From assembly GCA_024642335.1 (NCBI GenBank), contig JAHEBH010000001.1, positions 62,001-126,000 of the forward strand: a stretch of 64,000 bases of DNA, read 5' to 3'. This document shows, one piece after another, positions 1,377 to 1,482 of the stretch (within the stretch, counting starts at the first letter, position 1; every line of letters starts with the position of its first letter). Under the pieces are notes generated by a model. It was not told where the DNA came from. It searched no databases and was given only the letters and a program-made list of their open reading frames with translations. This DNA is from Erythrobacter sp. (GTDB lineage Bacteria; Pseudomonadota; Alphaproteobacteria; Sphingomonadales; Sphingomonadaceae). Made by a program: the position numbers and the translations under genes.

Positions 1377-1429
1377 CCTTAGGCGGGATGCCCATGCGTC
1401 ACGCGCAGGGCGGGGTGCACGCCTAAGGG
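1377..1429 (-). promoter_or_regulatory. leuA leader hairpin, candidate attenuator
   Basis: A perfect 10-bp inverted repeat (CCCTTAGGCG / CGCCTAAGGG) closes over a second GC-rich stem in the leuA leader RNA. The 5' arm contains the TAG stop of the leader peptide, so a ribosome stalled on the preceding Leu codons would cover it. No U-run follows the hairpin. If this is attenuation, termination may be Rho-dependent, or control may be on translation: CCCTTA in the 5' arm could also pair with TAAGGG at the leuA ribosome binding site. The structure is seen in sequence; the mechanism is inferred. Confidence 0.6.
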
Positions 1430-1482
1430 CGTGTAAGTCGAAGCAGCGATAGGAGCTCACGACGGTTCATGGTCATCAGCAT
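1423..1482 (-). CDS. Leucine-rich leader peptide of leuA
   Basis: This is a 19-codon ORF, too short for the track, reading MLMTMNRRELLSLLRLTRP. An internal ATG gives a 17-residue form starting MTMN. Five of seven consecutive codons near the end encode leucine (CTC, CTA, CTG, CTT, CTT). Its stop codon lies in the 5' arm of a strong hairpin, about 120 bases upstream of leuA on the same strand. Position and composition match classic amino-acid attenuation leader peptides. The Shine-Dalgarno is weak (GGTAAG), which tempers confidence. Confidence 0.65.
   Translation of the reverse strand: MLMTMNRRELLSLLRLTRP

Follow-up and report, generated by a model that had tools for sequence, protein, structure and literature searches.

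A putative leucine-responsive translational attenuator upstream of leuA in the Sphingomonadaceae

Introduction

The DNA analyzed here is a 64,000-nucleotide stretch from Erythrobacter sp. (GenBank assembly GCA_024642335.1, contig JAHEBH010000001.1, positions 62,001–126,000), referred to below as the window. Close to its start, the interval between yceI and leuA, the gene for 2-isopropylmalate synthase, holds a hairpin, a promoter-like TAGACA-17-CATATG and a leucine-rich open reading frame (ORF) whose stop codon lies inside a 10-bp stem. The question raised by this arrangement is whether, and how, it controls leuA. In textbook proteobacterial amino-acid attenuation, the control is by transcription termination. 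An earlier note, made from the DNA sequence, proposed a leucine leader-peptide regulator of leuA that might act on translation rather than transcription. The conserved leucine codons, the stem and its covariation support the first of these proposals; the second is probably also correct, because there is no terminator and the pairing with the ribosome-binding site (RBS) of leuA co-evolves. We consider it likely that the element is a leucine-responsive translational attenuator of leuA, in which the leucine codons themselves sequester the RBS.

The leader ORF and the stem at its stop codon

All features described here lie on the minus strand and are numbered by their position in the window. A reading frame with three in-frame ATG codons (at 1482, 1476 and 1470) runs to a TAG stop (1425–1423) and encodes MLMTMNRRELLSLLRLTRP. 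It includes the sequence Leu-Leu-Ser-Leu-Leu-Arg-Leu, so that five of seven consecutive codons specify leucine in a leader ORF directly upstream of leuA, whose ATG is at 1302–1300. The stop codon lies within CCCTTAGGCG (1429–1420), which is perfectly complementary over 10 bp to CGCCTAAGGG (1385–1376). We call this stem P2; its arms are CCCUUAGGCG (5′ arm, 1420–1429, including the stop codon) and CGCCUAAGGG (3′ arm, 1376–1385). The stem had been noticed in the earlier note and is as described there, except that the element, given as 1377–1482, extends one base further, to 1376. The sequence 3′ of P2 (AACTTCAAGA; AACUUCAA) has no U-run, as had also been remarked.

We then analyzed the leaders of related bacteria. 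A set of 80 named leuA loci (including Altererythrobacter, Alteraurantiacibacter, Aurantiacibacter, Croceibacterium, Erythrobacter, Qipengyuania, Novosphingobium and Sphingomonas) and further genomes of the order gave 144 non-redundant leaders from Sphingomonadaceae. The leader ORF and the stem are present in all 144, of which 142 were identified by script and two (L141 and L182) by eye; in these two the ORF and stem are visible and the core of the leader is changed. Conservation of the leucine codons and the stem in close relatives, on which the earlier note had made its reading depend, is therefore found in the leaders examined. The leader peptide mostly ends in LRL(T/I/M)RP or LRL(T/I/M)RPWA directly before the stop. 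In the 2.66-Mb genome there is a single copy of CTNCGACTTA. A covariance model of leader and stem, whose training set includes the window, finds one place in this genome (5e-13), apart from a weak antisense match at the same place. Family members with a match almost always have just one, which, where checked, lies before leuA. It is therefore clear from the single occurrence of CTNCGACTTA, the recurrence in 144 of 144 leaders and the single place found by the model that the arrangement of leader and stem is not due to chance. A plasmid search gave no match. We note that one record titled “Actinobacteria bacterium 21-64-8” (L106) carries a Novosphingobium-like leuA and leader, and is probably a mislabelled metagenome assembly.

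P2 is conserved as a structure as well as in position. When 49 diverse leaders are aligned, 97.5% of the P2 cells are paired, and two-sided changes occur at 5 of the 10 pairs (29 cells, compared to 9.2 in shuffles; 0 of 500 shuffles), while slid registers score much lower. RNAalifold, used without guidance, gives the P2 helix with 8 of its 10 pairs. At the position where UAG alternates with UGG, an A-U pair alternates with G-C, such that 141 of the 142 leaders are paired there, compared to 75% in shuffles. The covariation analysis of Sphingomonadales leuA leaders suggested in the earlier note thus gives a positive result for P2, and the leucine codons prove to co-evolve with the RBS, as described below. 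At least five T in the eight bases after the stem, as expected of an intrinsic terminator, are found in only 5 of the 142 leaders; an intrinsic terminator at P2 is therefore unlikely, and is not a feature of the family. As a separate observation, a local hairpin, CACGCC-CUUA-GGCGUG (1418–1433), could form from the P2 5′ arm in place of P2. Across the 142 leaders this hairpin has some covariation at its two outer pairs.

The start of the leader was located from its probable promoter. The predicted −10 box is CATATG (1480–1485), which would place the start of the transcript 0–4 nt before the leader ATG. The predicted −35 box, TAGACA (1503–1508), is 17 nt before CATATG and has counterparts (TGGACA, TTTACA or TAGACA) in many relatives. 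The ATGs at 1482 and 1476, which would give the 17–19 codons of the earlier note, lie within or right after the −10 box, that is, no later than the expected start of the transcript, and in many relatives the third ATG is the only one. The leader is therefore likely to start at 1470 and to have 15 codons (MNRRELLSLLRLTRP, 1423–1470, ending 120 nt before leuA), with the two other ATGs probably upstream of the transcript; the leucine content reported earlier stands and the length probably does not. In 97 of the 142 related leaders the −10 box ends 6–9 nt upstream of the leader ATG. The base directly before this ATG is C in most leaders, and only 5 of the 142 have a Shine–Dalgarno (SD) core. The position of the promoter-like boxes and the near absence of SD cores lead us to predict that the leader ORF is nearly leaderless, with transcription beginning at or beside its AUG.

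Pairing of the leucine codons with the leuA ribosome-binding site

The run of leucine codons in the window (GAGCUCCUAUCGCU, 1445–1458) is complementary to the region AGCGAUAAGGGCUU (1309–1322), which holds the leuA SD sequence AAGGG (1316–1312). We refer to this pairing as P1. In the window it consists of GAGCUC-C-UAUCGCU (1458–1445) and AGCGAUA-A-GGGCUU (1322–1309), with a computed energy of −19.7 kcal/mol. The sequences involved vary between species (L076 pairs UGCUGAACCUU with AAGGUUCAGC, L191 pairs AGCUUCUUCUCGG with CCGAGGAAGC), and so does the register. A column-by-column covariation analysis in a fixed register, carried out for one subset, was uninformative because of these register shifts. 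We therefore used a test based on energy, in which the duplex formed by each leader with its own leuA RBS is compared to the duplexes formed with RBSs swapped between species.

Over all 142 leaders, the mean duplex energy is −12.8 kcal/mol with the leader's own RBS and −10.8 kcal/mol with swapped ones; composition-matched shuffles give −10.5 kcal/mol. The difference corresponds to z = −9.8 for 115 leaders, −7.5 for 74, and −5.8 for 33 mutually dissimilar leaders (0 of 5000 permutations). The own partner is still preferred when RBSs are swapped in from only the ten nearest relatives (p = 1e-4). On the gene side the signal is greatest from −30 to −5 relative to leuA (z = −8.1) and is absent inside leuA, while on the leader side it is greatest at the leucine codons (z = −7.4), with z of about 0 for the P2 5′ arm.

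Folding of the window is consistent with these results. In the folding ensemble, the bases of the leuA RBS have a probability near 1 of being paired with the leucine codons of the leader, and P1 and P2 can coexist (−65.3 compared to −66.0 kcal/mol). When the bases that would be masked by a ribosome at the CUU codon are removed from pairing, the unpaired fraction of the RBS rises from 0.13 to 0.59. Both co-evolution and folding thus indicate that codons of the leader pair with the RBS of the gene to be controlled, as in a translational attenuator.

The CGACUUA core and other Alphaproteobacteria

The most strongly conserved part of the leader is the in-frame sequence CGA-CUU-A (1434–1440), which is nearly invariant in the 142 Sphingomonadaceae leaders. 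Its conservation is at the nucleotide level and extends to the wobble positions and to the base that opens the following codon. Among other alphaproteobacteria, 62 of 102 leuA upstream regions have CGACTTA on the sense strand, whereas its complement is found in 1 and the word read in reverse in 4. We found no pairing partner that would account for CGA-CUU-A across the class. The anticodon that reads CGA carries inosine, and GC-rich genomes make little use of CUU; our guess would be that the heptamer is a codon context prone to stalling. Two other ideas were rejected. CGACUUA is not a globally avoided word, being rare only through base and codon composition (37 occurrences in the genome, with the Markov expectation met in the window). 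A programmed +1 frameshift at CUU-A was considered, as the +1 frame in the window extends almost to leuA; by eye, other relatives have CGACUAA, a stop in the +1 frame.

Many alphaproteobacteria other than sphingomonads (L145–L171 and L212–L286) have two leaders in tandem before leuA: a distal ORF near −300 (M..LRLTxPxL before the stop) and a proximal ORF near −120 (..LRLIGGRRA before the stop). In this group, pairing with the leuA RBS is seen for the proximal leucine codons (z = −4.7, the best of several windows), and pairing with the region from −70 to −40 for the segment that follows the motif (z = −6.5), giving a counterpart of P2. The distal leucine codons pair with a region lying 60–90 nt upstream of the proximal motif (z = −3.6), and there is no signal for pairing of the distal leader with the leuA RBS. 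As several windows were tried, these class-level values are to be taken as suggestive; they are compatible with a possible cascade from the distal to the proximal leader.

The element also occurs before a non-orthologous leuA of the bacterial type (M..IRIFDTTLRDGEQSPG), in three Sphingomonadaceae (L295–L297) and in two other families of the order (L298 and L299). The element would thus have outlived, or moved with, replacement of the leuA enzyme, and its tie is therefore to the synthesis of leucine, not to a single lineage of the gene. We tentatively suggest, as an idea that may well prove wrong, a leucine switch present across the Alphaproteobacteria, in which the invariant CGA-CUU-A context would set the stall, the ancestral arrangement would be a tandem cascade (the distal leader controlling translation of the proximal leader, and the proximal leader controlling leuA), and the switch would follow leucine synthesis despite the non-orthologous replacement of leuA.

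Proposed mechanism and alternatives

Comparison between species, together with folding, has identified a conserved leader ORF, a conserved and covarying P2, a co-evolving P1 and no U-run. We infer from them that the element could work as follows. The leuA mRNA would begin at or beside the AUG of the 15-codon leader ORF. When leucine is ample, the leader would be translated fully and ribosomes would depart at the UAG. In the RNA so freed, P2 would form around the stop codon and the leucine-codon run (1458–1445) would pair with the leuA RBS (1322–1309) as P1, turning off translation of leuA; P2 would act as a bridge that holds P1 together and stabilizes this off state. When leucine is scarce, a ribosome would stall at a leucine codon, probably the conserved CUU after CGA, and would cover the 5′ strand of P1 and part of the P2 5′ arm, leaving the leuA RBS free.

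Several observations weigh against this mechanism. Averaged over the family, a stalled ribosome opens the RBS only modestly (unpaired fraction 0.41 to 0.50), and 25% of the leaders pair no better with their RBS than with a shuffled one; for both reasons the P1 signal is a property of the set of leaders compared, not of every species. In the model, the RBS is opened by a ribosome at the stop codon as well, and the off state therefore requires that the ribosome be released. The proposed mechanism does not call for conservation of CGACUUA as an exact heptamer to the degree observed. P1 is not individually significant in the five leaders before a bacterial-type leuA. Finally, the actinobacterial LEU element, which is analogous, was argued on mutational evidence not to use stalling at leucine codons (PMC1262725).

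Four other explanations were weighed. In classical transcription attenuation, P2 would be an intrinsic terminator when the leader ribosome does not stall. A leader peptide and a GC-rich stem overlapping its stop are the usual anatomy of such a system, UUUU follows the stem in a few sphingomonads, and in L147, outside the family, a similar stem is closely trailed by AUUUUU. However, the T-rich run is confined to the five leaders mentioned above, with about 34 nt the loop is long by the standards of terminators, and no co-varying antiterminator was found, whereas the pairing with the RBS does co-vary; we consider this explanation unlikely. (L147, a class-level locus, may be a true terminator version in another order.) Control could also depend on Rho, which in the absence of a stalled ribosome would load on the untranslated region between the stem and leuA and end transcription before or in leuA. 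The missing U-run and the C-rich, unstructured stretches 3′ of P2 in many species would suit Rho, but it leaves the co-evolution of leucine codons and RBS unpredicted, and as the main control we think it decidedly unlikely. Rho could also operate downstream of P1.

The earlier note had suggested that the P2 5′ arm alternates between its 3′ arm and the leuA SD sequence. The complementarity it pointed out (CCCTTA with TAAGGG at 1317–1312, or CCCUUA with UAAGGG in the RNA) is present, and the duplex is computed at −18.3 kcal/mol in the window, so similar to the energy of P1 that only the comparison across species separates the two pairings. This comparison speaks against the switch, since the 5′ arm does not co-evolve with the RBS across the family and UAAGGG is found in the RBS of only 3 of the 142 leaders, making it very improbable. 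Lastly, P2 and CGACUUA might form a site for a protein or small RNA, with the peptide being secondary, as has been proposed for the actinobacterial LEU element. Conservation of CGACUUA and of CGCCC beyond the needs of the codons would fit such a site, but across the class the heptamer stays in the CGA-CUU frame of an ORF that is rich in leucine, has a start codon and stops at a few preferred positions, and we regard this explanation as highly improbable. Translational attenuation by P1 is therefore the reading that we favor.

Genomic context

The leuA gene (1–1302) belongs to NCBIfam TIGR00970 and runs past the start of the window, which contains the 434 N-terminal residues of the 2-isopropylmalate synthase. 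Upstream of it on the same strand are yceI (1579–2226), ilvC, ilvH and ilvB. The YceI-family gene is thus located between ilvC and leuA, and is followed by a strong hairpin (1554–1523), read from the sequence as GGAAGCGCGCG..CGCGCGCUUCC and then UGCGUUUGUG, with a weak U-tract. The hairpin is likely to be a terminator that sets ilvB-ilvH-ilvC-yceI apart from leuA.

Comparison with known systems

A search of Rfam, including Leu_leader and the other leader families, gave no match at the gathering score and none of relevance at E values up to 10. If confirmed, the present analysis would add to known elements a structured RNA and a 15-codon gene, both outside Rfam. A search of the open literature, which did not extend to the key survey of proteobacterial attenuators by Vitreschak et al. 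(2004), gave no description of the element in sphingomonads, so that an earlier prediction in alphaproteobacteria is possible. The significance of the element is that the sensing codons would themselves be the anti-SD sequence, in a large family and with a core that spans the Alphaproteobacteria, providing a translation switch that responds to leucine and needs no protein regulator. CGACUUA, conserved beyond what leucine sensing needs, poses a concrete question on codon context and stalling.

The enterobacterial leu leader (Rfam Leu_leader) resembles the sphingomonad leader in having a leucine-rich leader peptide that senses charged tRNA-Leu before leu genes. Like other transcription attenuators it ends in an intrinsic terminator, whereas the sphingomonad leader has no U-run. 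Mycobacterial polycysteine leaderless ORFs reportedly attenuate expression of the downstream gene, in work of 2020 ascribed to Canestrari et al. As cited in PMC13236596, these ORFs are short, leaderless and rich in the amino acid sensed, as is predicted for the sphingomonad leader; they differ in that this amino acid is cysteine and the genes are others. Closer in phylogeny is trpL of the alphaproteobacterium Sinorhizobium meliloti, in which a leaderless start has been mapped: a short leader ORF opens the transcript and precedes an amino-acid gene. It differs in responding to tryptophan and in working by transcription termination, which releases the small RNA rnTrpL (PMC7298713, PMC10117765).

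The closest parallel in design is the actinobacterial leuA LEU element, in which the base stem is formed by the leucine-codon run and the leuA SD sequence, with no terminator (PMC1262725, Seliverstov et al., 2005). Compared by description, the sphingomonad leucine-codon run likewise pairs with the leuA SD sequence as a base stem. The inner part of the LEU element is described as a pseudoknot, whereas that of the sphingomonad element is P2, a simple stem that encloses the stop codon. The passages considered on the LEU element make no mention of CGACUUA (PMC1262725), and the likeness described here is one of design. The authors of the LEU element favored a protein-binding site over stalling (PMC1262725), and the sphingomonad leader offers a testable case for this disputed design.
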